From: Paenibacillus polymyxa
Lineage (GTDB): Bacteria > Bacillota > Bacilli > Paenibacillales > Paenibacillaceae
Length of the DNA stretch: 64,000 bases
Direction of reading: 5' to 3'
Assembly (NCBI RefSeq): GCF_015710975.1
Contig: NZ_CP049783.1
Coordinates: forward strand, 3,076,001 to 3,140,000
The notes under the pieces are model-generated. The model ran no database searches. It was given only the letters and a program-made list of their open reading frames with translations, and had not been told where the DNA came from. Of this stretch, positions 32,617 to 48,682 are shown in pieces; the first letter of the stretch is position 1, and every line of letters starts with the position of its first letter. Both the position numbers and the translations under genes were made by a program.

Positions 32617-33341
32617 TTGAACCATCCTCCTGCTTCCTGATCCAATAAAATAAGCACATCGGGGTGACATTGCAGCAGGGAAGCCGGACACTCCGTTGTG
32701 ACGGGGCCAGTTAAAGCCTGCCTTATAATGTCGGCCTTCTCTGCGCCAAAGGCCACCAGCATAATTTGCTTCGCCTTCAGAATGGTGCCAACTCCCATCG
32801 TCACTGCTTGTCTGGGGACTGCATCTATATCACCAAAAAATCGGGCGTTCGCTGAGCGCGTTCTTTCTTTCAAATCTACAACATGTGTGGCTCCGGTCAA
32901 GCTGTGACCGGGTTCGTTAAAGCCGATATGACCGTTATGACCAATGCCAAGCAATTGGAGATCCACAGGTCCATGATCCAAAATGGCCTGCTCGTGTGCT
33001 GCACATTCTGCTGTGAGATCTAGTGCATCCCCGTTAGGGACGCGTGTATGAGATATGGGAATGTCGATATGCTGAAACAAGTGCTCATTCATAAAGCTGC
33101 GATAGCTCTGCGGATGTTCTGGGGCAAGGCCAACGTATTCATCAAGATTGACGGAATAGGCGTGTGCAAAGCTCACCTGTCCCTTGCGGTACATATCTGC
33201 AAGATGTCGGTAAATGCCTATCGGCGTACTACCGGTGGCCAAGCCCAGCATAGCTTGTGGTTTGGACAGCAGCAAGCTGGCGATCACAGTGGCAGCAGTA
33301 GCGTTCAGGTCTTCACGGCTGTTCAAAATGCGAATGTTCAT
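32613..33341 (-). CDS. nagB: Glucosamine-6-phosphate deaminase
   Basis: The 242-residue isomerase converts glucosamine-6-phosphate to fructose-6-phosphate and ammonia. Motifs include LGLATGSTPIGIY, NLDEYVGL (catalytic Asp region), LGIGHNGHIGFNEPG with the catalytic His, and MGVGTILKAK. It is shorter than the allosteric E. coli enzyme and resembles monomeric Bacillus NagB. It begins two bases after the regulator gene ends and overlaps nagA. Confidence 0.95.
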   Translation of the reverse strand: MNIRILNSREDLNATAATVIASLLLSKPQAMLGLATGSTPIGIYRHLADMYRKGQVSFAHAYSVNLDEYVGLAPEHPQSYRSFMNEHLFQHIDIPISHTRVPNGDALDLTAECAAHEQAILDHGPVDLQLLGIGHNGHIGFNEPGHSLTGATHVVDLKERTRSANARFFGDIDAVPRQAVTMGVGTILKAKQIMLVAFGAEKADIIRQALTGPVTTECPASLLQCHPDVLILLDQEAGGWFK

Positions 33342-33343
33342 CT

Positions 33344-34210
33344 TTAGTGACCCCCTGGTTGTTTTTTGAGCTTACTCACTTGTTGATATGAACCTTCCAA
33401 TCTCGGAATATATTTGTCAAAATTAGCGCTCACCATACCTGTAAACAGGATATCTATAATATGAAGCTGGGCGATGCGGGAGGCCATGTCTCCACGTCGC
33501 ATTCCTTCCTCCAATGAAGAGGAAAATAGCGCAATATCCGCAAGGCTTGCCAGCGTATTGTTTCCGAAGGAGGTCAGGGATAATGTTTTGGCACCCTGTT
33601 CCTTTGCACACCGTAGAGCCGCAATCGTCTCCTGGGTTTCTCCTGAATAAGAGACGGCAAAGGCTACATCCTCCGCTCCGAGCGAGGAGGCAGAGGTGAT
33701 CTGCATGTGAGAATCCGCGAAGGCAGTGCTATTCTTGCCAATACGGATCAGCTTCTGGTAAAAATCCTGCGCCACAATTGAGGATGTCGCCATCCCATAG
33801 AGATCAATACGGCTTGTGGCTGACAGCCATGCAATGGCATGCTCCAGCTTGTCGAAATCCAGCAGCCGGGTCGTGTCCGCGATGGAGGCCGTATGGTTTG
33901 CCTGAATAGCTTTCACGATGCGGGAAAGTGAATTTCCAGCCACAATGTCCTGATAGGATTCTTCACCTGTAAGGTTGGAATGGGACAACTCGGCGGCCAG
34001 CTTCATTTTGAAATCGGGATACCCTTTAAAATGGAGTGATTTACAAAACCGTGTAACGGTTGCGGCACTCACACCACAACGCTCTGACAGTTCCCGAATA
34101 CCCAGGTGCAGCACATTTTCTGGGGCTTGCAGGATAGATTCCGCCAGCTTACGCTCTTGTACGGGCAACTGATCCAGTCGATGGGATAATGTATGAAGAA
34201 TGGGGGACAT
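33344..34210 (-). CDS. MurR/RpiR family regulator of the nag operon
   Basis: A 288-residue protein with N-terminal HTH_6 (LGIRELSERCGVSAATVTRFCKSL) and C-terminal SIS sugar-phosphate domain (DLYGMATSSIVAQDF, SYSGETQETIAAL). It is the first gene of the operon with nagB and nagA, so amino-sugar phosphates probably serve as effector. ATG 34210 follows AAAGGAG. Confidence 0.92.
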   Translation of the reverse strand: MSPILHTLSHRLDQLPVQERKLAESILQAPENVLHLGIRELSERCGVSAATVTRFCKSLHFKGYPDFKMKLAAELSHSNLTGEESYQDIVAGNSLSRIVKAIQANHTASIADTTRLLDFDKLEHAIAWLSATSRIDLYGMATSSIVAQDFYQKLIRIGKNSTAFADSHMQITSASSLGAEDVAFAVSYSGETQETIAALRCAKEQGAKTLSLTSFGNNTLASLADIALFSSSLEEGMRRGDMASRIAQLHIIDILFTGMVSANFDKYIPRLEGSYQQVSKLKKQPGGH

Positions 34211-34574: not shown

Positions 34575-34853
34575 ATGCAAAGCCAAGTGATTGAAATGAT
34601 CAGCGCGGTCAAGGAAGATCCTGAATTGGTCGCTAAGCTGGATGGACATTCGGACATTATTCATGATGCAGGACTAGATTCGTTGCAATTGGTTCATTTC
34701 ATGCTGCAAGTGGAGGATGCATTTGATGTGGAGATTGATTTTGATTCCTTTGAGTTGGAACATCTCCGTTCAGTAGATGCGTTTTGCAGTTACATTCAAG
34801 AAATGAGCGATGCGGAGCAAGTGCCGCACCCGGAAGGTATGGAGACAGTCTGA
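34575..34853 (+). CDS. Acyl carrier protein 1
   Basis: A 92-residue carrier protein with the phosphopantetheine Ser36 in GLDSLQLVHF and acidic helices, after AAGGAGGAG. The extra C-terminal tail is unusual for fatty-acid ACP, and the gene lies apart from fab genes, so it belongs to a dedicated pathway. It is the first gene of the twelve-gene cluster and is followed by a radical SAM gene, suggesting that the radical enzyme may act on its cargo. Confidence 0.9.
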   Translation: MQSQVIEMISAVKEDPELVAKLDGHSDIIHDAGLDSLQLVHFMLQVEDAFDVEIDFDSFELEHLRSVDAFCSYIQEMSDAEQVPHPEGMETV

Positions 34854-34899
34854 ACGTAGGGTAGACTTTGCCTGAAAATCCATTAAACGAGGTGTTAGC

Positions 34900-36093
34900 A
34901 TGCAGCCCAAAAGCAATGTGCTGATTGATGAGAAGGCTTTCAAGCTCATCAAGCGTAACCTGAAAAACGCTTCCGTGTCTTATCGTAACGCAACACAGGA
35001 CCCTGCTTTCAAAACGGACATGCCCCAGACGATCGGTATTAAGCTGACCAACCGTTGCAACTTAAGATGCACGCACTGCTTTGAATGGAACGAGGAAGGC
35101 TATCATCACCAGATGGATAAAGAAGAACAGAATATGGATCTTGCCCCGGACATGCTCCGGCAGATTTTGAGCGAAACGAAGGAGGTTAAGTCCCGACTGT
35201 ACATGTGGGGTGGTGAACCGATGTTTCACCGGCGCTTTGATGAAATTTTGGACGTGCTGGCGGAAGATCGGCGTGAAATGACCTTTTGTACAAATGGACT
35301 ACTCATTGATAAATATTTGGACCGGATTTTGGACTTGTCTGAAAATCTGGAATTGTTAATAGCGATTGAAGGTTTTGAAAGAGAACACGATTTAATACGC
35401 GGTAAAGGCACCTTTCAAAAAACAATGCGGCAGATGGATAAGCTGATTGAACTTCGCGATCAGGGATTGTACAAGGGACGGGTAACTGTCCATGCGGTCA
35501 TTAACGATAACATGATCGGACGGATGTACGAATTTCTGCAAATGTTGGAGGACAAGAGGCTGGATCTGGTGCTGCTGACGTTCCCCTGGTACATTTCCAA
35601 AGAAACCTCCTTTAAAATGGATGAATATTTTACACGTAATTTCTCCTGGCTCCGACAACTTGAAGAAAAAAATATTAGTAGCTGGCATGCTTTCAAATAT
35701 AAAATCAACCCGGCTAACATTGACCCTCTGATGCAGGAATTACAGCGGATCAATGAGCGGGTATGGAACATTCGCGTGCGCTATCAGCCCGGCTTGGATT
35801 ATGAGGAAATTGATAAATTTATACATGGCGAGGAAATGGTCAGCCGTTGTTCCAATCATTGCTTGGCGCTCACCTCCAGAACAGATATTTTACCAGACGG
35901 AAAGGTTATGCCTTGCAAATTTTTCAGTGAGTTCACAATTGGAAGTTTGCGTGAGCACAGTCTGAAGGAAATATGGAACTCGGATGCGTATGAAAAAACC
36001 CGTCAAAAGATTAACCATGAAGGATTGACGCCGGTGTGCTCCAAATGCAGTGTACTGTATCTGCACGGGGCAGGCTCTCTGAAATACATTTAG
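34900..36093 (+). CDS. Radical SAM/SPASM enzyme
   Basis: The 397-residue protein has the cluster motif C53-x3-C57-x2-C60 in TNRCNLRCTHCF, the GGEP motif in MWGGEPMFH and a SPASM-type C-terminus with Cys317, Cys321, Cys339, Cys380 and Cys383 that could hold one auxiliary cluster. BtrN of butirosin synthesis is a radical SAM dehydrogenase with a shortened SPASM domain, but nothing here shows the same reaction. Epimerisation, dehydrogenation or C-C chemistry on an ACP-bound or sugar substrate are all possible. Confidence 0.88.
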   Translation: MQPKSNVLIDEKAFKLIKRNLKNASVSYRNATQDPAFKTDMPQTIGIKLTNRCNLRCTHCFEWNEEGYHHQMDKEEQNMDLAPDMLRQILSETKEVKSRLYMWGGEPMFHRRFDEILDVLAEDRREMTFCTNGLLIDKYLDRILDLSENLELLIAIEGFEREHDLIRGKGTFQKTMRQMDKLIELRDQGLYKGRVTVHAVINDNMIGRMYEFLQMLEDKRLDLVLLTFPWYISKETSFKMDEYFTRNFSWLRQLEEKNISSWHAFKYKINPANIDPLMQELQRINERVWNIRVRYQPGLDYEEIDKFIHGEEMVSRCSNHCLALTSRTDILPDGKVMPCKFFSEFTIGSLREHSLKEIWNSDAYEKTRQKINHEGLTPVCSKCSVLYLHGAGSLKYI

Positions 36094-36159
36094 TTTCCTA
36101 TGGATCTCCTATGGATATTGTTTGCTACTAGATGGAAGAGAGAGGGATGATGACAAGAC

Positions 36160-37535
36160 GTGACGACTAAAACGATTAACCTTGTGGAAGCACTTGCTCA
36201 TGAACGGGATCATGGGGTCCTGATTTGGCTGTTTAATATCGGCGCAGAGCAAGTGTGGCATCCATCCCCCCGGAAGGGGGCATGGTAGACCGGGATGAAC
36301 AGCAGGTTGTAAACCGGATGGAGGAAATGAATCTCCTGCTATGCCGAAGTCAGGATGTCATTGTACTCCGTGAACAGCCGGATGAGGCATTTCTGGACAT
36401 GCTTCAGCGGTTAGGCTTCAGCCTGCCGCGTATTGAGGTACCAGAGCCCTCTGATCCGCTAACGCCGATTTCAGAGCTGGTACTGGCGGATGACGCGCTT
36501 TTGGCACGATTACGCGCGGTTGCGGATGCAGGCCATAGCAGCGGTGGTACCAAAGCATGGCTCGTACCCTATGCGGTCACACCGCAGGAGGAAGCGATCG
36601 CGGAGCGTTGCGGGCTGGAGCTGATCGGCGCTCCATCTGCGGTGTGCGCCCAGGTGAATGATAAAATATTTAGCCGTCTGACCGCACAAAAGCTTGGTTT
36701 TGCTGTCAGTGAAGGCGCTGTGTGTGCAGATGAAGCGGCAATTCGCAGAGAATGTGAGAGATTGGCTGGCTTATCGGACGAGCCCGTGAAGCTGATTATT
36801 AAGCAGCCGCACGGTGCCTCGGGACAAGGCATGTATATGCTGGACGAGCTGTCCAAGCTGGATACACTGCTGAGTGTGATGAGACGCTTCGGCGGCTCGT
36901 CATCGTCTTCTGGCGGCTGGCTGGTGGAGCGCTGGCACAATAAGCAAATGGATCTGAACTACCAGCTCTGCATTGACGAGGGCGGTGGGGTGACGATGTT
37001 TTCACTAAAAAGGCAAAACGTAGACGGCACAGTCTATATCGGGTCCCAGGTTCCCGCTGATATTGGCGAAACGCTGGAGGAAGAAGTGAGACGATGCGCT
37101 TATCAGTTGGGAACGTATCTCTATTCCATCGGGTATACGGGAATGGCCTCCATTGACGGTTTTGTTGACGAAGATGGTTTGCTGGTTCCAGTGATCGAGA
37201 TTAACGGCAGATTTACCCTGTCTACTTACATCTCGTTCCTGTCCTCTGTCTTGGGAGAACAGCATAAGACCTTTTCCCGTTATTATCGCAACGTGACCAC
37301 TACACCTCTCACCTACAGCCGTTTGTGCGGGTTGCTGGCGGAGGAAGGCCTGCTATATACACCCGAGCGACCTGAAGGGGTGTTTGTTTATACGGCGGGC
37401 ACTTTGTCTGGTATTCCTGTGAAGCGGGGCTATGTGAACCGGATTTTTACACTTATTTTGGCAGACAGTTGGCAGGAAGCTGATGCTTATGCGCACAAAT
37501 TGGAAGGTATCATTGCTGGATTAGGATGCTCATAA
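36160..37535 (+). CDS. ATP-grasp ligase 1, N-terminal frameshift
   Basis: GTG 36160 opens a frame MTTKTINLVEALAHERDHG ... IGAEQVWHPSP typical of this family's N-terminus; it reaches a stop at 36286-36288. The remainder continues in the -1 frame (PEGGMVDRDEQQVVNRMEEMN) to 37535. One extra C in the C6 run at 36266-36271 would rejoin them to about 458 residues. ATP-grasp motifs follow: KLIIKQPHGASGQGMYML, LVERWHNKQMDLNYQL and the metal-binding Glu and Asn in PVIEINGRF. It should form an acyl-phosphate and ligate an amino acid or acid, probably to a carrier protein, as BtrJ does. Confidence 0.82.
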
Positions 37536-37553
37536 ATTAGGAGGGAATCGAGA

Positions 37554-37799
37554 ATGAAAACAGACGTATACCATGTAGTACCTTTACTGGAAAAGGTTTT
37601 GAAGCTGGCTCCCGGCGAGCTGGAACAGCTCACTCCGGATCAGGATCTGCGAACCTTGGGGCTGAATTCCTTATCTGCTGTTGAATTAATTGTTGAATTA
37701 GAAAATGAGCTTGATATTACGATGGAGGACGACGATTTGGTGCTGGAGCATCTGTCTACATTGCAAGGCATTGAGCGTCTGCTGGGCAAATATGCATAA
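37554..37799 (+). CDS. Acyl carrier protein 2
   Basis: An 81-residue carrier protein with Ser39 in GLNSLSAVEL; Asn replaces the usual Asp before the modified Ser. AGGAGGG precedes ATG. It follows ATP-grasp ligase 1 and overlaps the BtrH-like gene by eight bases, so the ligase, carrier and transferase may form one loading-transfer unit. Confidence 0.9.
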   Translation: MKTDVYHVVPLLEKVLKLAPGELEQLTPDQDLRTLGLNSLSAVELIVELENELDITMEDDDLVLEHLSTLQGIERLLGKYA

Positions 37800-38868
37800 G
37801 GGCGCTGAACAGACAAGACCTAGGCTGCAATCCGATATGGGAACTCGTCATGATTCCATAGTTGACCATAGTGCAGAAGAAATCGCAAGCGCTCTCCCAG
37901 GGAAACATTGTGTATATTCTTCCCTGCGTACTTCATTGCGGAGGTATGGAGTGAACATGGCGGAAGCTGAGCTGTTCATGCTGTGTGGGAGTATGTGCGC
38001 AGAGTATGGTGGAGATTTGAAGCGCTTCGGGCCGGAGAAATATCCGGAGCAGCTTCAAGAAATGGCCGCCAGTGGCGGACCGGTTATTCGGGTAGAACCG
38101 TGGATCGAAGGAGTCAGCAATGAAACCGACCTGTTGCAGGTGCTCACATCCGGCTATGGTACGATGCTGCATACGTCTAGCACCGCTTTAACCTATCACG
38201 ACGTATATGTGAAAAATTACCCAAGGGGCCATGTGATTGAGTTGTGCGGATTGGACTTGCAAGAACGGACGGCACAGGTGAATGATAGCTTCCTGCTCGA
38301 TTCCTCGGGACATGCGATGACTTATGTGGGCTCAGCCCGGCTCGACGACCTCATGCAGGGCATTATTGAGTATGCATGGCTAGTGGAGCAGCCTGTCCCG
38401 CTTTCGCCAAGGGAGCTGCATGCTGCGTGTGCTTACCATATTCGTCAGTATGTGACGGGTGAGAAAGTTGCAACAGACCAGCAGGTCAAGCGGGGAGATG
38501 CAGGTTACCGGTCATTTGTCGATGACTTCCATCTGTTAGAAGACATGGAGGATCAGGAGTTTCGGACGTACTGTCATGAAATCTATTACAATCTGCGATT
38601 AGGCAGCGCTCTTCATTTGACAGATTATACAGCTGATTATTGCCGGCTGCATCAAGATACGCTTGGGCCGCAAACCCAGCATGTCATTGAATTGGCACAG
38701 GCACTTCACAGGGATTGGCACAAGCTTAATCTGCATATTTACAAAACAGGACTCCAACTGCGCAAGCATCGGATGCCTGAGATTACAGAGCGGGCTCTGC
38801 ATTTGATTGAAAGACAGCGCCATATGCTGGAGGAATTGATGATTTTAGCTGAGCAAGCAGCCGAGTAG
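37792..38868 (+). CDS. BtrH-like acyltransferase
   Basis: ATG 37792 overlaps the ACP stop; a later start would lose the catalytic Cys. The 358-residue protein has a BtrH_N-type cysteine transferase layout: Cys40 in GKHCVYSSLRTSL, followed by GVNMAEAELFMLCGS, then His147 in RGHVIELCGLD and Asp165 in AQVNDSFLL. In butirosin synthesis BtrH moves the ACP-bound side chain onto ribostamycin. The C-terminal helical part here (residues 200-358) is less conserved. Assignment is by motif order only and needs a profile search. Confidence 0.68.
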   Translation: MHKGAEQTRPRLQSDMGTRHDSIVDHSAEEIASALPGKHCVYSSLRTSLRRYGVNMAEAELFMLCGSMCAEYGGDLKRFGPEKYPEQLQEMAASGGPVIRVEPWIEGVSNETDLLQVLTSGYGTMLHTSSTALTYHDVYVKNYPRGHVIELCGLDLQERTAQVNDSFLLDSSGHAMTYVGSARLDDLMQGIIEYAWLVEQPVPLSPRELHAACAYHIRQYVTGEKVATDQQVKRGDAGYRSFVDDFHLLEDMEDQEFRTYCHEIYYNLRLGSALHLTDYTADYCRLHQDTLGPQTQHVIELAQALHRDWHKLNLHIYKTGLQLRKHRMPEITERALHLIERQRHMLEELMILAEQAAE

Positions 38869-38938
38869 TCTAAGCATTCGGCTATATCAGGCATGTTCAT
38901 CCAGGTATCACGCACAGAGGAAAGAGGAGGGGAATTCA

Positions 38939-39931
38939 TTGCCGTCCATTACATTAAACCAATTGTCGAAAACGTTTACGTACTACAAAAAGGAGCCGGG
39001 CGTGCGCAAATCGTTACAAAATTTGTTTAAGCGTGAACAGCTGACCAAAAAGGCTGTGCAGGATGTTAGCTTTAGCATTGAGGAAGGTGAGATTGTCGGA
39101 TTTCTTGGCCCAAACGGGGCGGGCAAAACAACGACGCTCAAAATGCTGTCCGGCATTCTCCATCCCACAGACGGGGAGGCATCGGTACTCGGCTTTACCC
39201 CGTGGAAGCGCCAAAAGGAGTTTAAACGTCAGTTTTCCATCGTAATGGGACAGAAAAACCAGCTCTGGTGGGATTTGCCTGCAAGCGAGTCGTTCGAGCT
39301 GAACAAGCTTATCTACGAAATCGATGATAACCGTTATAAAGAGGCGCTGGATGAGCTGGTCACTCTGCTTGGGGTGGAGGAGCAGCTGCATGTGCAGGTG
39401 CGGCGACTATCGCTCGGCGAGCGTATGAAAATGGAACTAATCGCCGCGCTGCTGCATCGCCCACGAGTCATTTTACTGGATGAGCCGACCATCGGATTGG
39501 ACCTTGTTTCTCAGCGGCGGATTCGGGAGTTTTTCAAAGCTTATAATCGTACACACCGGACGACCATTTTGCTGACAAGCCACTACATGAAGGACATTGA
39601 GGATTTATGCACTAGGTCCATCATTATCAGTGGGGGCAGATTGGTGTATGACGGAGACTTGCACAAGGTGAATGAGGTCATGGGTGCTCGTAAACTGCTC
39701 AAGGTTCGACTGGAGACCACTGTATCCAACCTGACGTTGGCGGGGCTCGGCAAGCTTCGCTCCAACTCGGAGCTGGAGGCGGTATTTGAGCTGGACGCAG
39801 AAGATACGTTGACTTGGTCCAAAAAGATTTTGGATGCACTGCCTGTCGTTGATTTTACGATTGAGGACGTCCCGCTGGAAGAGGGGATAGCCAATTTGTA
39901 TGATGGGGGCAGGCTGGCCGATGCGAAATAA
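38939..39931 (+). CDS. ABC transporter ATP-binding protein of the cluster
   Basis: TTG 38939 follows AGAGGAGGGG. The 330-residue ATPase shows Walker A GPNGAGKTTTLKM, signature VRRLSLGERMKMELIA, Walker B VILLDEPTIGLDLVSQ and LTSHYMKDIE. It has the YbhF/NatA-like form used with ABC-2 exporters of the DUF990 type. It overlaps the first permease gene and should power export of the cluster product. Confidence 0.92.
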   Translation: MPSITLNQLSKTFTYYKKEPGVRKSLQNLFKREQLTKKAVQDVSFSIEEGEIVGFLGPNGAGKTTTLKMLSGILHPTDGEASVLGFTPWKRQKEFKRQFSIVMGQKNQLWWDLPASESFELNKLIYEIDDNRYKEALDELVTLLGVEEQLHVQVRRLSLGERMKMELIAALLHRPRVILLDEPTIGLDLVSQRRIREFFKAYNRTHRTTILLTSHYMKDIEDLCTRSIIISGGRLVYDGDLHKVNEVMGARKLLKVRLETTVSNLTLAGLGKLRSNSELEAVFELDAEDTLTWSKKILDALPVVDFTIEDVPLEEGIANLYDGGRLADAK

Positions 39932-40727
39932 CAAATATGTGAAGGTGCTCCAGCTTGGTATGCAAAACGAAATGGAGTATCGAGCCAATTATTGGCTACA
40001 AATGGCGGGATTTATGCTGCCGATCATGACACAAATTTTTCTCTGGCTTGCGGTATTCGGTTCTTCAGGACAAGCAAGAGTGGTGGACTATTCTCTGCCG
40101 GAAATGCTGGTGTATGTGGTTATGGCGGGAGTAACTGGAAAACTGATTGCTACAGGCTTTGAATACGAAATTGCTACAGATATCAAGGAAGGTGGACTGG
40201 CAAAATTCATGGTACAGCCTGTACATTATTTTGCCTACCGTTTTTGCCGGTTTATTGGAGGCAAAGTCATACAGTCCGCAGTTGTGCTGCTGGCGGCTGC
40301 TATTTTGCTGTTATGCCTTAGCCTGGAAGGACAAATTAGCTTCGAGCTATCGTACATCCTGCTTTACATATTGGCGTTGCCGGGAGCACTTGTGCTTAAT
40401 TTTGTGGTCTATTATGCGCTGAGTGGCATAGCTTTTTGGATGACAGAATCGGCGGGACTTTTTTATACGGTGTCGCTTGTCATTTATGTAGCTAGCGGTA
40501 CCGTGTTTCCGCTGACGATTTTTGGAGATGCGTTGGCCCGTTTGTTCAGTCTGCTGCCGTTCAGCTATACCGTATTTTTTCCGGTGAATGCGTTGACGGG
40601 CAAGCTGACTGTGCTGGAAGCCGCTGAAGGCATTGGCGTGCAATGGATCTGGATTGCAGTGCTGGCGGCCGTATCACGCTGGGTGTGGCAAGCTGGAGTC
40701 AAACGCTTTGTCTCGGTGGGAGGTTAA
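39921..40727 (+). CDS. ABC-2 permease 1 (DUF990 type)
   Basis: ATG 39921 overlaps the ATPase gene by 11 bases. The 268-residue protein has six hydrophobic spans and the family start QLGMQNEMEYRANYWLQM with GGLAKFMVQPVHYFAYRF in the cytoplasmic loop. It pairs with the next permease. Confidence 0.9.
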   Translation: MRNNKYVKVLQLGMQNEMEYRANYWLQMAGFMLPIMTQIFLWLAVFGSSGQARVVDYSLPEMLVYVVMAGVTGKLIATGFEYEIATDIKEGGLAKFMVQPVHYFAYRFCRFIGGKVIQSAVVLLAAAILLLCLSLEGQISFELSYILLYILALPGALVLNFVVYYALSGIAFWMTESAGLFYTVSLVIYVASGTVFPLTIFGDALARLFSLLPFSYTVFFPVNALTGKLTVLEAAEGIGVQWIWIAVLAAVSRWVWQAGVKRFVSVGG

Positions 40728-40728
40728 C

Positions 40729-41541
40729 ATGAAAAATGTTTTTCGAAACGTTGGACGTTACCTCAGACTGTACTGGAAATTTGTCCAGTTTTCCGTCATG
40801 TCGCAAATGGAATACCGCACTAATTTTATAAGTGCATGCCTGGTTGAAACCGCTTATTTATTTATCAAGCTGCTATACGCATCGCTTCCATATCGCGCTG
40901 GGACGGACATTAACGGCTGGTCTCCCGATGCCATGCTCTTATATATCGGCGTGTTTACGATGATGAGCGGATTTTATAGTGGATTATTTTACAGTAATTT
41001 TACAAGCCTGCCTGACAAAATTCGCACTGGCTCACTGGACGTGCTCATGACCAAACCAGTATCGCTGCAATTTATGGTGACACTGCGTCAATTTGAACTG
41101 GGCTATACTGTGCCGAATGTCGTGGGCGGTGGAATCATGACAGGCATTGGCTGGTATCATCTGGGGTTGCCATTTGATGTGGAAACCGTGGGAGGATTTG
41201 CTGTGCTGCTCGGATGTGGAGTGCTTACGGCATACTCCGTGTTTTTGCTGCCACAACTGCTGGCCTTCTGGATTATCCGCACGAACGGTGTTACAGAGCT
41301 ATCCAACAGCATTTTCGAGACAAACTATGTGCCGATGGCCGTGTACAGTAACCTGATTCAGCGTATTGGCTTATTTGTGCTTCCGGTGTTTGTCATCTGT
41401 AATTTTCCGCCCATGTTCATTCTCGGCAAAATGGAACCCAGTTTGATGCTATGGGCCTTTCTCGCACCTCTCTGGCTGCTGGCGATTATCCGCTTGATAT
41501 GGCAGTTTGCTCTACGTGATTATACGAGCGCGAGCCAGTAG
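40729..41541 (+). CDS. ABC-2 permease 2 (DUF990 type)
   Basis: ATG 40729 lies one base after the previous stop with GGGAGG upstream; the longer frame starting at 40633 is not needed. The 270-residue protein has SVMSQMEYRTNFISACLVE and IRTGSLDVLMTKPVSLQF, the counterparts of motifs in permease 1. The two permeases probably form a heterodimer. Confidence 0.9.
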   Translation: MKNVFRNVGRYLRLYWKFVQFSVMSQMEYRTNFISACLVETAYLFIKLLYASLPYRAGTDINGWSPDAMLLYIGVFTMMSGFYSGLFYSNFTSLPDKIRTGSLDVLMTKPVSLQFMVTLRQFELGYTVPNVVGGGIMTGIGWYHLGLPFDVETVGGFAVLLGCGVLTAYSVFLLPQLLAFWIIRTNGVTELSNSIFETNYVPMAVYSNLIQRIGLFVLPVFVICNFPPMFILGKMEPSLMLWAFLAPLWLLAIIRLIWQFALRDYTSASQ

Positions 41542-41590
41542 CGCTACCGTGTAGTAGGTTCATAATGAAGCAGGAAAGGAAGCGAATCAT

Positions 41591-43123
41591 ATGAATGCGA
41601 TACCGAACCAGCGTCATTTATATATGGGAACGTTCGAAGCGGAGGCTTACTGGCGAGATACCGAGCTAGCTTCCCTACCCGCCCTGCCTGACCGGGCTTC
41701 TTCGGCCATAGTAGCAGCTATGGATGAATTGCTGTTTAGCTTTTGCCAGCCGGGAGACGCCTTATTGACACGTTATGCCATTTCACCTGTGCACCGTCAG
41801 TATATCGCGCAGCTAGGCTTTCATCCGGCTGTAAACGAACGGGATTTGACTGACGGAATGGAACTGGCGGACAATGTGTCGGCCGCATCCGTTTTTGAGC
41901 TACTGAGCAGTCGCAAGACGGATGCCGATGAAGGTTTTCCTCAGCTGGAGGGCTGTGTGCTTAGTCCATTTGCGGGGTTGCCGCATGCGGAGGAGGCCGC
42001 ACGTGCTTGGGGAATTACATTGCATCAGCCACCGCTGGAAACGATTCGCAATGTAAATGCCAAAACCTATTCCTCTGAGCTAAAACGCAATCTAGGTCTG
42101 CGCAATCCAGGCCATATTGTGACTTCGTTTGCGGATGTCGCTGAAGCAGGACGTAAACTGCTGCGGGATGGAAGCTTTTTAATCAAGGATGATTTTGGCG
42201 TATCGGGCAAAGGCAATCTACACATTACCTCGACACAAATGCTGGACCGGGTAGTGTCGTATTTGCGTGGACAGGAGCGCAAAGGCAAACGGGTGCTGTT
42301 CCTGCTGGAGCCTTTCCTGGAGAAAGAGCAGGATTTTTCATGCCAATTCACGATTAGCGATGATGGACGTGTCGACATTATATCTGTGCAATGGCTGGCT
42401 AATACTCAATTCGCCTATCGGGAATCCCTATCGCCGGACAGGACTTTTATGGAGCGCCTGGAGCGGGACGGCTATTTTAGCTTGATGCAGGACGTGGGAC
42501 AGCAATTGTATCGGGATGGATATTATGGCGATGTTTGTATTGACTCCATGACACTTCGCGGCGGGAAGCTGGAGCCCATTATCGAAATTAATGCCAGAAA
42601 GTCGATGAGTTTGATCAAGCATCAGCTCGATACCTATCTGGCCGGGAAAAATATGCATGGCACGTTGACGAATTATTCGCTGTCCCATGATGGGAGTCTA
42701 TCCTATGAAGAACTGCTGGAAGGGCTGAAAGGTGAGGGATTGCTATTCACAGGTGAGCGTGAGGAAGGTGTCATGCCTCTGGGAGCCAATACGTTATATG
42801 TAAACACAGGTGGACGAGACGGTGAGAACAAGACTGCAGGTCATACAACCACGCCAAGCAGAAACACAACCGGACGCGGAGGCAGATCATCTGCCAAGCA
42901 GGTTCGCGTAAGTGGGATTGGAGCCAGCGATGGCGGACCAGAAGGGAACGGCATGAGTCAGCCTGATTTGAATGGTAAACAAGAAGCTGATGGAAATGAA
43001 CGGGCACGAGGCAAAGGCCGGCTTTATTTGGAACTGGTTGCTGCGAGCGATGAGGAAAAAATGCGATTGACTACCAAGCTGGAGCGTTTTTTGGCAGAGC
43101 GACATTTTACAGTGCTGAATTAA
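41591..43123 (+). CDS. ATP-grasp ligase 2 with disordered insert
   Basis: A 510-residue protein, ATG after AGGAAAGG. ATP-grasp motifs: SFLIKDDFGVSGKGNLHI, LLEPFLEKEQDFSCQF and PIIEINARKSMS. A Gly/Asn/Thr-rich segment of about 75 residues (from NTGGRDGENKT to NERARGKGR) is inserted between the ATP-grasp part and the last strand-helix unit RLYLELVAASDEEKM. It is distantly homologous to ligase 1. Two ligases and two carriers suggest that two different building blocks are activated. Confidence 0.87.
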   Translation: MNAIPNQRHLYMGTFEAEAYWRDTELASLPALPDRASSAIVAAMDELLFSFCQPGDALLTRYAISPVHRQYIAQLGFHPAVNERDLTDGMELADNVSAASVFELLSSRKTDADEGFPQLEGCVLSPFAGLPHAEEAARAWGITLHQPPLETIRNVNAKTYSSELKRNLGLRNPGHIVTSFADVAEAGRKLLRDGSFLIKDDFGVSGKGNLHITSTQMLDRVVSYLRGQERKGKRVLFLLEPFLEKEQDFSCQFTISDDGRVDIISVQWLANTQFAYRESLSPDRTFMERLERDGYFSLMQDVGQQLYRDGYYGDVCIDSMTLRGGKLEPIIEINARKSMSLIKHQLDTYLAGKNMHGTLTNYSLSHDGSLSYEELLEGLKGEGLLFTGEREEGVMPLGANTLYVNTGGRDGENKTAGHTTTPSRNTTGRGGRSSAKQVRVSGIGASDGGPEGNGMSQPDLNGKQEADGNERARGKGRLYLELVAASDEEKMRLTTKLERFLAERHFTVLN

Positions 43124-43140
43124 ACGGGAGGCGTATAAGC

Positions 43141-44292
43141 ATGCGTAAGAGTACGGAGAAGCTTATGAAGGTAACGATTTTGTGTTCCGGTTTCGGATTG
43201 GGCTTTTATACCCCTGGCTTGCTGCTGCAAGCAGGTCTTCGCAGGCTGGGCATGGATACGGCGATCCATGTATTTGAAAATGTACTGCCAGAATCGGCCC
43301 GTCTCAAGGTCGACAAAAGTCGGAAAGCTTACCATGACAATTTTGCGGTGGCCTTAATGTCGCAAAAGGTTCCGCAGGATATGCGTCATTCACTGGACCC
43401 CGCAGCGATGGAAGTACTGCTGAACCAATGGATAGAAGAGGATCGGCGGTATTTTATATGCTTATCCGGTCATTGGATGTATGTACTGGAGGAGTATCGC
43501 AGGCGCAGAGAGCCGGAGTCGGTGTATGTGGACATCGTGTATATGGATTCGACACCTTCTCCTTCCTGGAAAAATCTAGCCAAGCATCATCCGCATTTTG
43601 CTGATGGCTGTGGAGAAACGACCCTGTTTGAAAATGATAAAAATAGAGTCAGCCACTATATTGACATCCCAGCAGTGGAGCATATCCCTTTTGAAGCACG
43701 GCAATCCCGCTTATTCGTACATGGCGGCGGTTGGGGGATGGGCACCTACCGTGAGAAGGTTGGACGGTTGGCAGAAGCGGGCTGGGAACTGGATCTGCTG
43801 CTGTATGATCAGGATCAGCCAGATGAACAGCGGGACAGTATACGCTATTTTCGGATGGACCCGCAATGGAGAACATGGCAACGAAATGAAGCCGGGGAGC
43901 ATACATTTCCACCTTTCGGAGAGGTGAAAATGGGTGAGGAAACGGTGTATCAGGTCGGACCGGATTACCATTGCATGCTGGACCGAGTATGTCATGCCCA
44001 GGCCATTGTCAGCAAGCCCGGTGGCGGTAGCCTGACCGATTCGTTCGCTACAGCTACTCCGTTGATTATGCTGGAGCCGTTTGGTGTGCATGAGAAGCAT
44101 AATGCGGATCTATGGGAACGTCTGGGGTTAGGCATGCGCTACGAGACGTGGATTGGAACCTATGGCGCCAGTGCTCAGATTCTGGAGGAAATGCATCGGA
44201 GGATCGTAGAGCTGCGCAGTCGGACGCCGCGTTATATAGAGTCCTATGTGAAGAGCATTCAAGTGCCATCAGGAATGGAGCAGGGATCATGA
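43141..44292 (+). CDS. GT-B glycosyltransferase (MurG/GT28-like)
   Basis: ATG 43141 follows GGGAGG. The 383-residue protein begins KVTILCSGFGLGFYTPG and has the GT28-type donor site SKPGGGSLTDSFATATPLIMLE with HEKHNADLWERLGLG. It is soluble. It may add a hexosamine or hexose to the carrier-derived product or build the acceptor. It overlaps the oxidoreductase gene (ATGA). Confidence 0.85.
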   Translation: MRKSTEKLMKVTILCSGFGLGFYTPGLLLQAGLRRLGMDTAIHVFENVLPESARLKVDKSRKAYHDNFAVALMSQKVPQDMRHSLDPAAMEVLLNQWIEEDRRYFICLSGHWMYVLEEYRRRREPESVYVDIVYMDSTPSPSWKNLAKHHPHFADGCGETTLFENDKNRVSHYIDIPAVEHIPFEARQSRLFVHGGGWGMGTYREKVGRLAEAGWELDLLLYDQDQPDEQRDSIRYFRMDPQWRTWQRNEAGEHTFPPFGEVKMGEETVYQVGPDYHCMLDRVCHAQAIVSKPGGGSLTDSFATATPLIMLEPFGVHEKHNADLWERLGLGMRYETWIGTYGASAQILEEMHRRIVELRSRTPRYIESYVKSIQVPSGMEQGS

Positions 44293-45377
44293 ACGCGGCC
44301 GCGGCTGCGCAAGAACCTGCAATGCCAGATATTCGCTTTGGGATCATTGGCTGTTCTGCCATTGCCCCTCGTGCGTTGCTGGAACCGATCCGACATGTTG
44401 CAGGAGCACGCGTGACCGCGCTTGCGAACCGTACGGTTGCCAAGGCGGAAGAAATGGCAGAGCGTTATGGAGTCAATGTCGTTTATGGTCATGCTGAGGA
44501 TATGTTAAAAGACCCGGACATCGACGCTGTATATATTGCGCTCAGCAACGATTTACATGCTGAGTGGATTGGCAGAGCCTTACAAGCTCATAAGCACGTG
44601 CTGGTGGAAAAACCGTTATGCCTGCAGACGGCTGATCTGGCTCCCTTGGCAGCTATCGTCGAACAGAGCAACGCTTACCTGCTGGAGGGAGTCATGGTAC
44701 AGCATCATCCTTGGCAGCGTGAGCTGCGCAGAATTGTAGAATCGGGTCGTTATGGTCGCTTATGCTCCATAGAGACGAGTCTGTGTATTCCGGCAAAAGA
44801 AGGTCATGCGGACAATTACCGATCCCGATCGGAGCAAGGCGGGGGCTGCTTTTGGGATCTGGGTGTGTACTGGCTCCAATTGCTTCAGGCCGTCGTTGGA
44901 TTGGAGCAGGCGGAATTCCACAGTCAATCGGATTTCGATGGCCCCCATGGCTGTGACTGGACATTTCGTGCACAAGCCCGTTACCCAAGCGGACTAGAGG
45001 CATCTGCCCTCTTCTCATTTGAGCGACCTTATCGCTGTGCTCATGTACTGACCTTTGATTCGGCAGTAGTCACCTTAAAGGATTGCTTTCGGGCGAATTT
45101 AGGCTTTTATAAAATGACACTCAAGACGGAAATAAAGAAGGATATCGCGGTGAATATAACAGATACGGCAGCACAGTCCTTGTTATCACAGACATCCTCG
45201 CATAGCAAAACGGTTTTTGAGCCCATGAACTATTATGTCAATCAGTTGGATGCCTTCTGCAGCATCATCCGGGGTGAAACGGAGCCCATTCCATTTCATG
45301 AGGCTGCTGAACGCGTCAGACTGCTGGCAGCTATTCATCAAGCAGCACGCTCAGGCGAGGCGATCTATGCCATATGA
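44289..45377 (+). CDS. Gfo/Idh/MocA family oxidoreductase
   Basis: ATG 44289 overlaps the glycosyltransferase stop; the longer frame from 44112 is a shadow. The 362-residue protein has the Rossmann start IRFGIIGCSAIAPRALL and the catalytic EKP in HVLVEKPLCL, then GGGCFWDLGVYWLQ. Such enzymes oxidise or reduce hydroxyls of sugars and inositols with NAD(P). It probably modifies the sugar handled by the adjacent transferase. Confidence 0.88.
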   Translation: MNAAAAAQEPAMPDIRFGIIGCSAIAPRALLEPIRHVAGARVTALANRTVAKAEEMAERYGVNVVYGHAEDMLKDPDIDAVYIALSNDLHAEWIGRALQAHKHVLVEKPLCLQTADLAPLAAIVEQSNAYLLEGVMVQHHPWQRELRRIVESGRYGRLCSIETSLCIPAKEGHADNYRSRSEQGGGCFWDLGVYWLQLLQAVVGLEQAEFHSQSDFDGPHGCDWTFRAQARYPSGLEASALFSFERPYRCAHVLTFDSAVVTLKDCFRANLGFYKMTLKTEIKKDIAVNITDTAAQSLLSQTSSHSKTVFEPMNYYVNQLDAFCSIIRGETEPIPFHEAAERVRLLAAIHQAARSGEAIYAI

Positions 45378-45459
45378 GTATGATTGTGGTTTTCAATCGG
45401 TGAAATTCGAGTAATACCAAATACAGAGTATCCAAGCAAAGAAAGGAGGGATTCGGCAG

Positions 45460-46740
45460 ATGGATCAAAAGGATCAAGTCTTACTGGAGCGATTCGGCGA
45501 GCATCCGACACCCTTTTATTATTATGATGGGGACGCGCTGCATGCTCACGTCAGCTCGTTGCTGGCTCGGTTACATCCGGCCGTGCGTGTACATTACGCG
45601 CTCAAGGCTAATGGTAACGTAGCCTTGGCTGGGTTGCTACGCTCGTTAGGTTGCGGTGTGGAGATTGCCTCGGCTGGAGAAATGTTCGTCGCCATGGAGG
45701 CCGGGTATGCTGCGGAGGATGTGCTGTACGCTGGGCCGGGGAAAACAGTAGCCGAGCTGCGCGAGGCGATAGCCTGTGGGATCGGCTGCATCCATGTTGA
45801 ATCGGTGAGAGAGCTACGTCTACTGGAGGACATTGCTGCCCAAACAGGTGTGTTTGTCAGAGCTGCGGTTCGAATCAATCCCGATAATGACCTGTCGGGA
45901 GCAACGATTAAAATGGGCGGTGTTCCGCGCCCTTTTGGCGTCGATGAAGGGCAGCTGGATCACTTTTTTAAGGTGCTGGAAGATTGCCCGCACGTATATT
46001 TTCAAGGCATTCAAGTGTATACAGGTACGCAAATGCTGAAAGCGGATCAGATTTTAGCTTCATTTGCAAATACCTTGCAGTTGGCAGAACGGGTGCAGAA
46101 TCAGTATGGTGTGGCGATGCATACGGTCAATTTGGGCGGTGGGTTTGGTGTACCTTATTTTGCTCATGAACAGCCGCTCGATATGGATCATGTCATTGAC
46201 GGACTCAATGCACTCGCGGAACAGACTCGATCCAGTATGCCCGGGGTTAGGCTGATCATTGAAAGCGGCAGGTATTTGGTCGCTCAATCAGGCATGTATG
46301 TCTGCCGGGCGTTGTATACCAAGGAATCCAAGGGAGAGAAGTTTGTCGTGGCTGATGGCGGCATGAATCACTACGTCTCAGCTACCTTTCGGGGACGCCG
46401 CTTAAGGGACAATTACCCGGTGCGAATTATGCGCAGACAAGTGGGAGAAGAGGTTTCCACGGCGCTGGAGACGGTAAGCATTGTCGGTCCGCTTTGTACA
46501 CCCGAGGATTGTATTGTGAAAAAAGCGGAGCTGCCCCCGATTCGCGAAGGCGATTATATTGCTTTTCCGAACGCAGGAGCCTATGGATTAAGCTACAGCC
46601 CATTATATTTTTTGGGACATGCTACTCCAGCGGAACTGCTCGATTATCGCGGGGAAGTGCATGTCATTCGTGAACACGGTGATCGCACGGACCTGCTGCA
46701 CCATCAGCGTATGATTGCGTTGCCTGAGGATGTGATGTAA
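45460..46740 (+). CDS. Fold-type III PLP decarboxylase (DAP/ornithine decarboxylase family, BtrK-like)
   Basis: A 426-residue alanine-racemase-fold decarboxylase, ATG after AAAGGAGGG. PLP Lys49 is in VHYALKANGN; the phosphate loop is NLGGGFGVPYF; ESGRYLVAQSG and the dimer-interface Cys in VGPLCTPEDC follow, with GAYGLSYSP near the end. LysA acts on diaminopimelate, but the context with ACPs and ATP-grasp ligases recalls BtrK, which decarboxylates glutamyl-ACP. It is the last gene of the cluster, followed by a terminator. Confidence 0.85.
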   Translation: MDQKDQVLLERFGEHPTPFYYYDGDALHAHVSSLLARLHPAVRVHYALKANGNVALAGLLRSLGCGVEIASAGEMFVAMEAGYAAEDVLYAGPGKTVAELREAIACGIGCIHVESVRELRLLEDIAAQTGVFVRAAVRINPDNDLSGATIKMGGVPRPFGVDEGQLDHFFKVLEDCPHVYFQGIQVYTGTQMLKADQILASFANTLQLAERVQNQYGVAMHTVNLGGGFGVPYFAHEQPLDMDHVIDGLNALAEQTRSSMPGVRLIIESGRYLVAQSGMYVCRALYTKESKGEKFVVADGGMNHYVSATFRGRRLRDNYPVRIMRRQVGEEVSTALETVSIVGPLCTPEDCIVKKAELPPIREGDYIAFPNAGAYGLSYSPLYFLGHATPAELLDYRGEVHVIREHGDRTDLLHHQRMIALPEDVM

Positions 46741-46749
46741 GTATGTAAA

Positions 46750-46804
46750 AACGCCAAAGTCATAGGAGCCGATATCCATCGGACCTGTGATTTGGCGTTT
46801 TTTA
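46750..46804 (+). terminator. Rho-independent terminator of the twelve-gene cluster
   Basis: AACGCCAAA (46750-46758) pairs with TTTGGCGTT (46791-46799), with a second inner stem CCGAT/ATCGG, and is followed by a T run. Confidence 0.88.
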
Positions 46805-46828
46805 CATTTTCAGCATTGTAGTATTGAC

Positions 46829-48658
46829 TTAACGTGATTGGGAGCTGCGTATTTCCTGACGGACAAGCTGCCATACCATAAAGATCAGCACAAGGGCTTG
46901 TGGGACAAATGTTTCCCAAGTTGGATACATTCCCAACCAGCTAATAGAAGGAAGCGAGGACGCAGTGTGTCCCGGCAGCTTGCCTGCCACCTGAAGGGAA
47001 TGAATACTTTCGCCCAGAAATCGGAATACGAGATAGTAGATCAGTATAGTGGCGGTCAGGAAAAAGGCGCGAATTGGCAACCTTACACTGAACTTGATGA
47101 TCGCTAAAGCAAGGACGACCAGTATAACCGTTGCCGAGCCAATACCGATCAGCAATTGCGAGGTTTCAATGGCCGGAGCCATACCGATATAAAAAATAGC
47201 TGTCTCGGCCCCTTCACGTAGAATCGCGAGCGCAGAAACCGCAAAGAGCGACCATAGGCTGCCCCGTGCTAGCGCATTGCCCACGCTGTTTTCCACAAAG
47301 CGGTTCCACGCAGCAGCATTGGATTTGCTATGCAGCCAGTTACCGACCGTTAGCATCAGCACAACAGCCACCAGCCCGGTGACACCTTCCAACAGCTCAC
47401 GCATGCTGCCCGATGCAGCAGCTGCCACCAGCGAGGTGAACAGCACCGCCAGTATTCCGCTTAGCACCAGTCCTGTACCAGCTCCTGCCCATATCCATCG
47501 TCCAGCCACGGCTTCGCCGCTTTTCTTGACATACGCGAGCAGAGCTGCGAGCACGAGAATGGCCTCCAGACCCTCGCGCAGCAAAATCAGTGCGGCGTCC
47601 CATGCAGTATAAGAACGTTCCTCGGTCAACGGACGGAGCCTGTCCAGCATCTGATCAAGAGTCTGCAAGGCTTTATCCGTATTCGGTGGGGAAGACAGCA
47701 GATATCCAGAAGTCTCGGTCATTTGATTTTCAATCGCAGTGTAAGACGCCGGATCGGAAATTTGTACATGTCCTTCGACAGAAGGCCATATAGCGATAAA
47801 CTGACCTACCTTGTCTGCGGCCTGCTCTGGCTGATTAGCTACAACATCTTGGCGTGCGGATTCGAGCAGGGTGACTGCATCGCCGAGGGAAGCTGTTGAA
47901 CCATTCGCTGCTCCGGCAGCGGCATTGCCTGCATCTGCCCCTTGATCTGTGTTCACAAGTTTGCCCTGACTATAATCAGACAGCAGCGTCGTTAACTCCT
48001 GCATTTCCTTGAGAGCCTGTGCTTGACGTATGGGCTCTGCTTGCATAGAGATGCGAATGAGGCTGATTTTCGTTTCAAGTGAACTGTATACCGAAAAATG
48101 ATCCAGACGAATCGGTGTCTCTACCTGATACCAGGCTTTAACGATTCGGTCGTAATCCACCCGCGCAGCAGCCCAATCGCCTTTTTGCATGGCAGCCAGA
48201 CTGCCCTTCGCCATAGGAAGCAGTTTTTCCGCTGCTTTAGCTCCGGCGGGAGCCGGTTGATCTCCTTCGGCAGCAGTCACGAACTCATTGACCGAGCGCG
48301 CCAGCACGGATAACGCAGCTTTCGCTGAATCCCCGCCGCCACGGGCAAGCGCCTCTTCCGCATCGGTCAGAGCTTGATCTACAGCCGCGATGTGAGCTGA
48401 ATCCCCGCCATTTGCTTTGGCGGCTTCCCATAAACCACGGAATTCCTTTAGGTCCTTGGAGGCTTCCGTCCATTGGTCTTGTCCCGCCTCCACCAGTGCT
48501 CCGCCGACCACTGGCATCAGCTGATCATTAGATTCAGCTTTAGCATTTGATTGTGCGAAAGCAGCGGACCTGGAGCCGGATATGAAGGGAGTTACTGTCA
48601 GCAGCAGAGCCGCCACCAGCACAAACACCCACCCCAAGCTTTTATTGCGCCGATTCAT
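46829..48658 (-). CDS. efeU: FTR1/EfeU iron permease with extracytoplasmic N-terminal domain
   Basis: A 609-residue protein with a signal-like N-terminus, about 320 outside residues of helical Ala-rich sequence and a seven-span FTR1 domain. The two iron-transport motifs are LLREGLEAILVLAAL and LREGAETAIFYIG. The long N-terminal part resembles Gram-positive EfeU/YwbL-type fusions. It is the third gene of efeO-efeB-efeU and moves ferric or ferrous iron inward. Confidence 0.9.
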   Translation of the reverse strand: MNRRNKSLGWVFVLVAALLLTVTPFISGSRSAAFAQSNAKAESNDQLMPVVGGALVEAGQDQWTEASKDLKEFRGLWEAAKANGGDSAHIAAVDQALTDAEEALARGGGDSAKAALSVLARSVNEFVTAAEGDQPAPAGAKAAEKLLPMAKGSLAAMQKGDWAAARVDYDRIVKAWYQVETPIRLDHFSVYSSLETKISLIRISMQAEPIRQAQALKEMQELTTLLSDYSQGKLVNTDQGADAGNAAAGAANGSTASLGDAVTLLESARQDVVANQPEQAADKVGQFIAIWPSVEGHVQISDPASYTAIENQMTETSGYLLSSPPNTDKALQTLDQMLDRLRPLTEERSYTAWDAALILLREGLEAILVLAALLAYVKKSGEAVAGRWIWAGAGTGLVLSGILAVLFTSLVAAAASGSMRELLEGVTGLVAVVLMLTVGNWLHSKSNAAAWNRFVENSVGNALARGSLWSLFAVSALAILREGAETAIFYIGMAPAIETSQLLIGIGSATVILVVLALAIIKFSVRLPIRAFFLTATILIYYLVFRFLGESIHSLQVAGKLPGHTASSLPSISWLGMYPTWETFVPQALVLIFMVWQLVRQEIRSSQSR

Positions 48659-48682
48659 ATAAATCCCCTTCCTTGCCTGCTG

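Follow-up and report, generated by a model that had tools for sequence, protein, structure and literature searches.

We analyzed a 64,000-nucleotide stretch of the genome of Paenibacillus polymyxa (contig NZ_CP049783.1, positions 3,076,001 to 3,140,000; hereafter the window), which contains an operon of 12 genes at positions 34575–46740. The operon encodes two acyl carrier proteins (ACPs), two ATP-grasp ligases, a BtrH-like acyltransferase, a BtrK-type decarboxylase, a radical S-adenosylmethionine (SAM)/SPASM enzyme, a glycosyltransferase (GT), a Gfo/Idh/MocA oxidoreductase and an ATP-binding cassette (ABC) transporter (Table 1). As an earlier reading made from the letters alone (the sequence-only reading) had stated, all 12 genes lie on one strand, here the plus strand, and they are densely packed, with intergenic gaps of –32 to +161 nt. 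Two start codons were revised, that of permease 2 to 40729 and that of the oxidoreductase to 44289, where the ATG overlaps the GT stop codon (ATGA) and the junction is –4 nt. Pfam supported both ACPs, the radical SAM/SPASM enzyme, the oxidoreductase and the fold-type III pyridoxal phosphate (PLP) decarboxylase, and the ABC-2 exporter was found to be complete, with an ATPase (PF00005) and two permeases (PF06182). A strong hairpin (–31.6 kcal/mol, z –8.4), which the consensus scan did not list, closes the operon, as had been claimed. The single promoter of the same reading was not borne out, since the consensus scan of the window found 11 promoter-like sites compared with a mean of 16.8 in shuffled sequences, that is, no excess. 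The terminator consensus likewise gave no more hits than shuffled sequences did. A scan of the window against Rfam at gathering scores gave no matches.

Table 1. Features of the 12-gene operon and its terminator (window coordinates)
Feature	Position	Strand	Evidence and remarks
ACP1	34575..34853	+	Carrier protein, LDSL serine motif; PF00550, 33.8 bits
Radical SAM/SPASM enzyme	34900..36093	+	PF04055 and PF13186
ATP-grasp1	36160..37535	+	PreATP-grasp, PGM1_C and ATP-grasp (Pfam); open frame here 36255–37535
ACP2	37554..37799	+	Carrier of the decarboxylase module, LNSL serine motif; PF00550, 48.5 bits
BtrH-like papain-fold acyltransferase (putative), Cys40-His147-Asp165	37792..38868	+	PF14399, 25.2 bits, below cut-off; 8-nt overlap with ACP2
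ABC transporter ATPase	38939..39931	+	PF00005, 95.5 bits
ABC-2 permease 1	39900..40727	+	PF06182 (ABC2_membrane_6), 92.9 bits
ABC-2 permease 2	40729..41541	+	PF06182 (ABC2_membrane_6), 146.9 bits
ATP-grasp2, diverged ATP-grasp, core gene, putative ACP1 loader	41591..43123	+	About 27% identity to ATP-grasp1; invariant residues
GT-B-type glycosyltransferase, core gene, marker of the cluster family	43141..44292	+	Alignment A1; weak profile match
Gfo/Idh/MocA oxidoreductase	44289..45377	+	PF01408, 85.7 bits
BtrK-type fold-III PLP decarboxylase	45460..46740	+	407 bits to BtrK 2j66; CTPED motif
Rho-independent-type terminator hairpin	46744..46806	+	–31.6 kcal/mol, z –8.4

All 12 genes were found in the same order in eight named loci, namely P. 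ottowii (L019), P. brasilensis (L020, in which two of the 12 genes match as two pieces each), Paenibacillus sp. BJ-4 (L021), P. terrae (L022 and L024), P. massiliensis (L025 and L026) and Paenibacillus sp. P96 (L027), and in a ninth, P. maysiensis (L023), whose contig stops in the last gene. This grouping of genes is not due to chance. The closest named relative as judged by ATP-grasp2 is P. ottowii (93%). Across six loci of the polymyxa group, the radical SAM enzyme was the most conserved of the larger proteins (97.7–99.2% identity), and only the small ACP2 was comparable (96.3–100%); the BtrH-like protein ranged from 80.6 to 93.6%.

Most of the operon belongs to a widespread core, which we defined in this analysis as ACP, ATP-grasp2, GT and radical SAM genes on one strand, and all four are present in the window cassette in this form. 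We compared 54 GT-bearing loci, a non-random set that comprised loci from the ATP-grasp2 search (L019–L029), loci from the BtrH search (L030–L038, excluding L034, which has no GT in its stretch), loci chosen partly for other genes (L083, L109 and L110) and 32 loci picked by hand on the GT alone to span the score list (L074–L082, L084–L093 and L111–L123); L041 was removed as a duplicate of L026. The four core genes were found within 12 kb in 51 of the 54 loci, the exceptions being L088, which lacks ATP-grasp2, and L109 and L110, which lack both ATP-grasp2 and the radical SAM gene. Among the loci picked on the GT alone, 31/32 contained the complete core, 25/32 the ABC ATPase, 15/32 the Gfo gene and 2/32 the decarboxylase, as determined with profiles that were seeded partly from the same loci, including some of these picks. 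The core genes were on one strand in all 54 loci. A carrier protein was likewise present near the GT in 54/54, with its carrier serine kept throughout (47 by pattern and 7 by eye); for L036 and L037, where the fetched stretch ends inside ATP-grasp2, this count refers to an ACP of the ACP2 kind. An ABC ATPase of this type was near the GT in 39/54 loci and Gfo in 33/54.

The constant presence of a carrier protein bears on another reading, in which the radical SAM and ATP-grasp enzymes modify a ribosomal precursor. Enzymes of both kinds are frequent in clusters for ribosomally synthesized and post-translationally modified peptides (RiPPs), both are encoded here, and several of the NCBIfam radical SAM models that matched are peptide maturases, all of them far under cut-off. 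However, an ACP near the GT in every locus argues against a RiPP cluster, as does the operon layout, where the widest gap (161 nt) is occupied by the 5΄ part of ATP-grasp1 (no search for open reading frames (ORFs) shorter than 70 amino acids was made), and we regard this reading as disfavored and very improbable.

Among the core proteins, the radical SAM enzyme displays a CxxxCxxC motif and four cysteines in the SPASM region that are invariant over 51 loci; no close solved structure was found for it. Of the two ATP-grasp ligases that had been proposed, ATP-grasp1 was recognized by Pfam, whereas ATP-grasp2 reached no Pfam cut-off and was assigned through its approximately 27% identity to ATP-grasp1 and its conserved ATP-grasp-type residues. 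K199, D200, G203, G206, G208, D318, E332, N334 and R336 of ATP-grasp2 are invariant in 12 rows and are typical of nucleotide and metal binding. This protein also has a low-complexity insert rich in Gly, Thr and Asn near its C-terminus (window about 42800–43015), and it is about 45–50 residues shorter in L025–L027. The GT had been described as a GT-B transferase; it reached no Pfam cut-off, and this description is retained because a processive diacylglycerol β-glucosyltransferase was matched by its profile along 66 positions (E = 1.4e-6). Cytosylglucuronate synthase was considered as an identity for the GT and set aside; at 0.01, the NCBIfam matches included no model of this kind.

The GT (profile A1) was detected in 146 of 394 genomes of the same family (Paenibacillaceae, going by the named relatives). 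In a phylum-wide sample of 398 genomes, it was detected in 4, of which three belong to this family and one is the window's own. In the protein collection, the profile found 603 proteins, with Clostridium, Ruminiclostridium and Acetivibrio among the 120 matches listed. The core is also present in Lachnospiraceae and Streptomyces. Streptomyces plasmids carry radical SAM, ACP, ATP-grasp, Gfo, APH-like (aminoglycoside phosphotransferase-like) kinase and GT genes together, and Lachnospiraceae loci contain ACP, ATP-grasp2, radical SAM, a protein weakly similar to β-ketoacyl-ACP synthase III (KAS III), GT and an APH-like kinase, with a MatE gene in L028. Small versions (L089, L091 and L111) comprised, with the profile set used, only ACP, ATP-grasp2, GT, radical SAM and Gfo. 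The APH-like phosphotransferases beside the GT (L028:14687–15748 in Lachnospiraceae and L075:10991–12007 in Streptomyces) could serve either in self-protection or as biosynthetic kinases. Among the relatives of the Streptomyces GT are proteins from Amycolatopsis sp. SANK 60206 and from S. calvus; the accessible portion of PMC6384614 places the former neither inside nor outside the A-102395 cluster.

The decarboxylase has a different affiliation. Its nearest solved structures are two BtrK entries (2j66 and 7ru7, 406–407 bits), compared with at most 167 bits for LysA proteins. It is 45.9% identical to BtrK over 401 positions, and both have a CTPED motif where the LysA of the same genome has CESGD. 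The sequence-only reading had named, as a result that would speak against it, an orthodox LysA with no other LysA in the genome. Instead, the protein is much closer to BtrK (407 bits) than to LysA (167 bits), it stays under the cut-off of the NCBIfam lysA model (275.6 versus 297.9 bits), and a separate gene elsewhere in the 5.96-Mb genome passes this model with 528.2 bits and shares 24.7% identity with the decarboxylase. An exosortase-associated decarboxylase (TIGR03099) was also rejected as an identity, with 398.3 bits against an NCBIfam cut-off of 478.45. On these comparisons, we classify the enzyme as BtrK-type and predict that it acts on an ACP-bound substrate. Relatives of BtrK were found in 73 of 394 genomes of Paenibacillaceae (E ≤ 1e-60). 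One of the loci located with BtrK (61% identity), L104 of genome G043 in the same family, contains DHQ-synthase-like (dehydroquinate synthase-like), class III aminotransferase, PIG-L, GMC oxidoreductase, radical SAM, luciferase-like and BtrH_N genes, and by our own reading of these genes it appears to be a butirosin-like aminoglycoside cluster.

The assignment of the 37792–38868 protein as a BtrH-like cysteine transferase is looser. It scores 25.2 bits with BtrH_N (PF14399), under the Pfam cut-off of 29.7, so the proposed assignment does not stand on the family score. It stands on five relatives at 53–55% identity that carry PF14399 and on H39, C40, H147 and D165, a papain-type set that is invariant in 15 aligned rows. 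A placement outside BtrH_N had also been named as adverse to the sequence-only reading; the Cys-His-Asp set is kept and we retain the family link, although the similarity is weak. The link is loose because the BtrH_N protein of L104 is without Cys at the aligned position. A BLAST comparison of the two proteins gave no match at 1e-4. The BtrH search matched 15 of 245 genomes.

ATP-grasp1 and ACP2 are associated with the decarboxylase. ATP-grasp1 was found in 20 loci (one duplicate), and a BtrK-type decarboxylase accompanied it in all but L023, where the contig breaks off inside the decarboxylase gene; the reverse does not hold, since the decarboxylase occurs without ATP-grasp1 in L104–L108. In L037, ATP-grasp1 and ACP2 overlap by 4 nt. 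On a core tree (joined GT, ATP-grasp2 and radical SAM sequences; 51 rows, quick search, with a sample enriched for BtrH-bearing loci), the decarboxylase label required two changes, one gain and one loss; L023 was scored as decarboxylase-bearing, and L039, L040, L109 and L110 are not in the tree. The branch of the loss (L032, L033, L035 and L038) is also without ATP-grasp1, ACP2 and the ABC ATPase, and has kept the BtrH gene. The decarboxylase module (ATP-grasp1, ACP2 and the BtrK-like enzyme) thus appears as an addition to the core, which would give the two modules separate histories.

In the window, a C/G run of ATP-grasp1 (region 36160–36290) is one base shorter than in seven relatives, in which the gene is in a single frame from a GTG equivalent to window position 36160. 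Because of this missing base, the open frame begins at the GTG at 36255, and 36160–36254 is an out-of-frame 5΄ part. The break is either a real frameshift in the strain or an assembly error.

The sister loci indicate which parts of the cluster are interchangeable. Candidate transfer enzymes near the GT were BtrH-like proteins (19/54 loci), proteins designated C39x (19) and C39y (6), and KAS III-like proteins (7), with at least one of these in 41 loci; in L075, a nonribosomal peptide synthetase (NRPS) condensation domain may take this part. The KAS III-like protein of L082 passes Pfam; that of L028 has no Pfam or NCBIfam match, and scores 21.6 bits with a profile of the other KAS III-like proteins. 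In L109, an AMP-ligase sits between the GT side and the ACP and BtrH_N protein, placed as if it substituted for the ATP-grasp loader, and in L112 and L113 the core ATP-grasp groups in a single clade with those of the BtrK-type clusters L104–L108. As to sugar genes, a CDP-glucose 4,6-dehydratase clearly passes its cut-off in L084, and a glucose-1-phosphate cytidylyltransferase passes narrowly in L040 (300.9 versus 300.25). These nucleoside diphosphate (NDP)-sugar genes in some sister clusters provide indirect support for the sugar-related acceptor of the sequence-only reading. Because the corresponding enzymes interchange among the sister clusters, loading, transfer and export steps are suggested, and the swaps may mark loading, sugar, transfer and export functions in the pathway.

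Several of these loci contain further genes. L109 (8828–19969) combines the GT and a BtrK-type decarboxylase with sulfotransferase, thymidylate-kinase-like, NTP_transf_5, AMP-ligase, BtrH_N and 5΄-nucleotidase C-terminal domains, which hint at a sulfated or nucleoside-like relative. In L039 (7277–11883), the ACP and the BtrH-like gene are accompanied by a luciferase-like (BtrO-type) monooxygenase, an APH-like kinase and a further BtrH_N-like protein. L105–L108 contain a BtrK-type decarboxylase and an ACP with an ATP-grasp (partial in L108) and no GT, and their neighbors are an AMP-ligase (L105 and L108), a cytidylyltransferase and an ABC transporter (L106), a carbamoyltransferase (L107) and a proline-hydroxylase-like gene (L108); they probably represent other pathways.

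The exporter also varies, being of the ABC-2, MatE (L028) or major facilitator superfamily (MFS; L075, by annotation) type, and L089 has an MFS gene on the opposite strand, about 2.8 kb away from the core. This variation is relevant to the possibility that the enzymes of the operon attach amino acids to a glycolipid or polymer of the cell envelope by a DltC-like ACP logic. The sole solved relative of the GT profile is the processive diacylglycerol glucosyltransferase, and both ACPs weakly match DltC, far under cut-off. Nevertheless, exporters of unrelated families, the patchy distribution of the GT in its own family and the finding of no DltB-like acyltransferase domain among the 12 scanned proteins make an envelope function improbable.

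We also considered that the sugar is not the acceptor. The GT would then glycosylate an amino acid or short peptide on ACP1, and the BtrH-like enzyme would join both acyl chains, resulting in a glycosylated dipeptide-like product. Consistent with this, the best-scoring ACP directly adjoins ATP-grasp2 or the radical SAM gene in 49/54 loci (an arrangement that equally supports the reading preferred below), ATP-grasp1 has PreATP-grasp and PGM1_C domains and weakly matches the PGM1 structure 3wvq, and in L075 the NRPS condensation domain follows the GT. On the other side, the NDP-sugar genes of some sister clusters suggest an elaborate sugar, and BtrH is described, in the accessible portion of PMC10318531, as an ACP:aminoglycoside acyltransferase. 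We judge a dipeptide-like product to be unlikely, though worth keeping in view.

The reading that we prefer, with a probability of roughly 0.52, is that the operon directs the assembly of a small molecule on two carrier proteins and its export, with a BtrK-style decarboxylated acyl group moved by the BtrH-like enzyme to a glycosylated scaffold. Its basis is the gene families, their conservation, the pairing of genes and the catalytic residues; from these we infer every substrate, the succession of the steps, and what the acceptor and product are. In the core line, ATP-grasp2 would load an amino acid onto ACP1, the radical SAM enzyme would alter the tethered residue or the sugar, and the GT would attach a sugar from an NDP-sugar, and the Gfo/Idh/MocA enzyme would oxidize or reduce that sugar. 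In the added line, ATP-grasp1 would load an amino acid on ACP2, most simply L-Glu via its side-chain carboxyl as in butirosin, and the BtrK-type enzyme would strip the α-carboxyl to leave an ω-amino acyl thioester. The BtrH-like papain-fold enzyme could then transfer this group onto the glycosylated core product, at an amine or a hydroxyl, and the ABC-2 transporter would export the conjugate. The ACP-based amino-acid conjugation proposed by the sequence-only reading is in this respect partly supported; most of the genes, however, form the different, widespread core, with the Btr-like part as an accessory.

Several observations weigh against this two-carrier pathway. The BtrH-like protein is under the Pfam cut-off. 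In sister clusters, the BtrH_N matches of C39-type proteins stay under threshold where there are any, and the BtrH-family profile matched 0/7 of these proteins. ATP-grasp1 is remote from the ATP-grasp of L104, and the gene is possibly broken in this genome. Moreover, the ATP-grasp1 profile gives the five ATP-grasps from BtrK-type clusters lower scores than does the ATP-grasp2 profile (whose seeds include L079 and L113), which speaks against a BtrJ role for ATP-grasp1. The sole solved relative of the GT makes glycolipids, the window cassette holds no NDP-sugar gene, and Gfo is missing near the GT in 21/54 loci and the ABC ATPase in 15/54. Finally, the substrates, product and activity of all twelve proteins are deduced from sequence.

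Beyond the window, we tentatively propose, at somewhat short of even odds, that the core represents an undescribed class of carrier-tethered glyco-amino-acid natural products. By the GT, more than one-third of the Paenibacillus-family species sampled would have this class, as would Lachnospiraceae and Streptomyces; it would be diversified by swappable loading, transfer and export enzymes, and the polymyxa group and its kin would have captured a butirosin-style decarboxylation line, leading to a two-carrier conjugate. If this is the case, a conserved biosynthetic operon for which we know of no product is present in relatives of P. polymyxa, a group with uses in biocontrol, and because the GT occurs in 146 of the 394 family genomes, one product structure would open a large family. 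To our knowledge, ATP-grasp loading of carrier proteins is known mainly from butirosin; such loading would be widened beyond that pathway, and the radical SAM group, which lacks an assigned function, would gain a testable substrate class.

The flanks were read from ORFs. Upstream (31390–34210) are nagA-nagB-rpiR-type genes, and downstream (46829–50047) are iron-uptake (Efe-like) and Dyp-peroxidase-like genes. Of these, nagB and rpiR were found again in L019–L024 and L027, and the Efe-like gene in L019–L022 and L024.

Searches of the open-access literature, which left most subscription papers outside their scope, found no description of this cassette or its product. The accessible portion of PMC10269915 names butirosin among low-similarity clusters. 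Predicted operons with ATP-grasp ligases, ACPs and papain-fold BtrH transferases, leading to peptide-derived metabolites, resemble the one described here; in the part of PMC2922099 that could be consulted, they are built on a methionyl-tRNA-synthetase-like ligase and a cupin, and not on the core of the window. ATP-grasp1 shares its PreATP-grasp and PGM1_C domains with PGM1-type peptide ligases (3wvq); in contrast to these, it is accompanied by an ACP and a BtrK-type decarboxylase, and the similarity is weak (33.5 bits). The GT resembles processive diacylglycerol glucosyltransferases (9wde) in a C-terminal stretch (profile positions 277–342), whereas the rest of the protein is unmatched and the context here is an ACP/radical SAM/ATP-grasp cluster.

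The comparison with butirosin draws on the generally known roles of BtrI, BtrJ, BtrK, BtrO, BtrV and BtrG. A BtrK-type decarboxylase together with a BtrH-like transferase could indicate a butirosin-type aminoglycoside pathway with its aminocyclitol genes elsewhere in the genome. When the genome was searched with the DHQ-synthase-like protein of L104, the best match (31% identity) passed the NCBIfam model for AroB (386.7 versus a cut-off of 305), three other matches were weak, and the query itself stays under this cut-off (222.9). Because the best match is an ordinary AroB, no 2-deoxy-scyllo-inosose (DOI) synthase was found, in agreement with the earlier statement that aminocyclitol genes are lacking. 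Moreover, no luciferase-like or γ-glutamylcyclotransferase domain, the types of BtrO and BtrG, was found by Pfam in the 12 proteins (the rest of the genome was not searched for them), and the core differs from the genes of L104; we therefore reject the aminoglycoside reading as highly improbable.

The description of the whole as a BtrI/J/K/H-like cluster was not supported as it stood. Close similarity to the butirosin counterpart (46–47% identity) is confined to the decarboxylase. Compared with L104, the decarboxylase is 47.1% identical, ACP2 40.5% and ATP-grasp1 24.8%; L104 carries aminoglycoside-type genes and no GT of this family. ATP-grasp1 forms a clade of its own apart from the L104 ATP-grasp (the BtrJ sequence itself was not among the compared proteins). 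We do not count the operon as part of the butirosin pathway, and we regard its Btr-like genes as accessory rather than central to the cluster. As far as sequence can tell, the chemistry of the decarboxylase would be like that of the butirosin side chain. What the two systems have in common is an operon in which a fold-III PLP decarboxylase close to BtrK accompanies an ACP, an ATP-grasp ligase and a BtrH_N-like transferase; what distinguishes the operon described here is its extra carrier line, with a radical SAM enzyme, a GT and a Gfo/Idh/MocA oxidoreductase.

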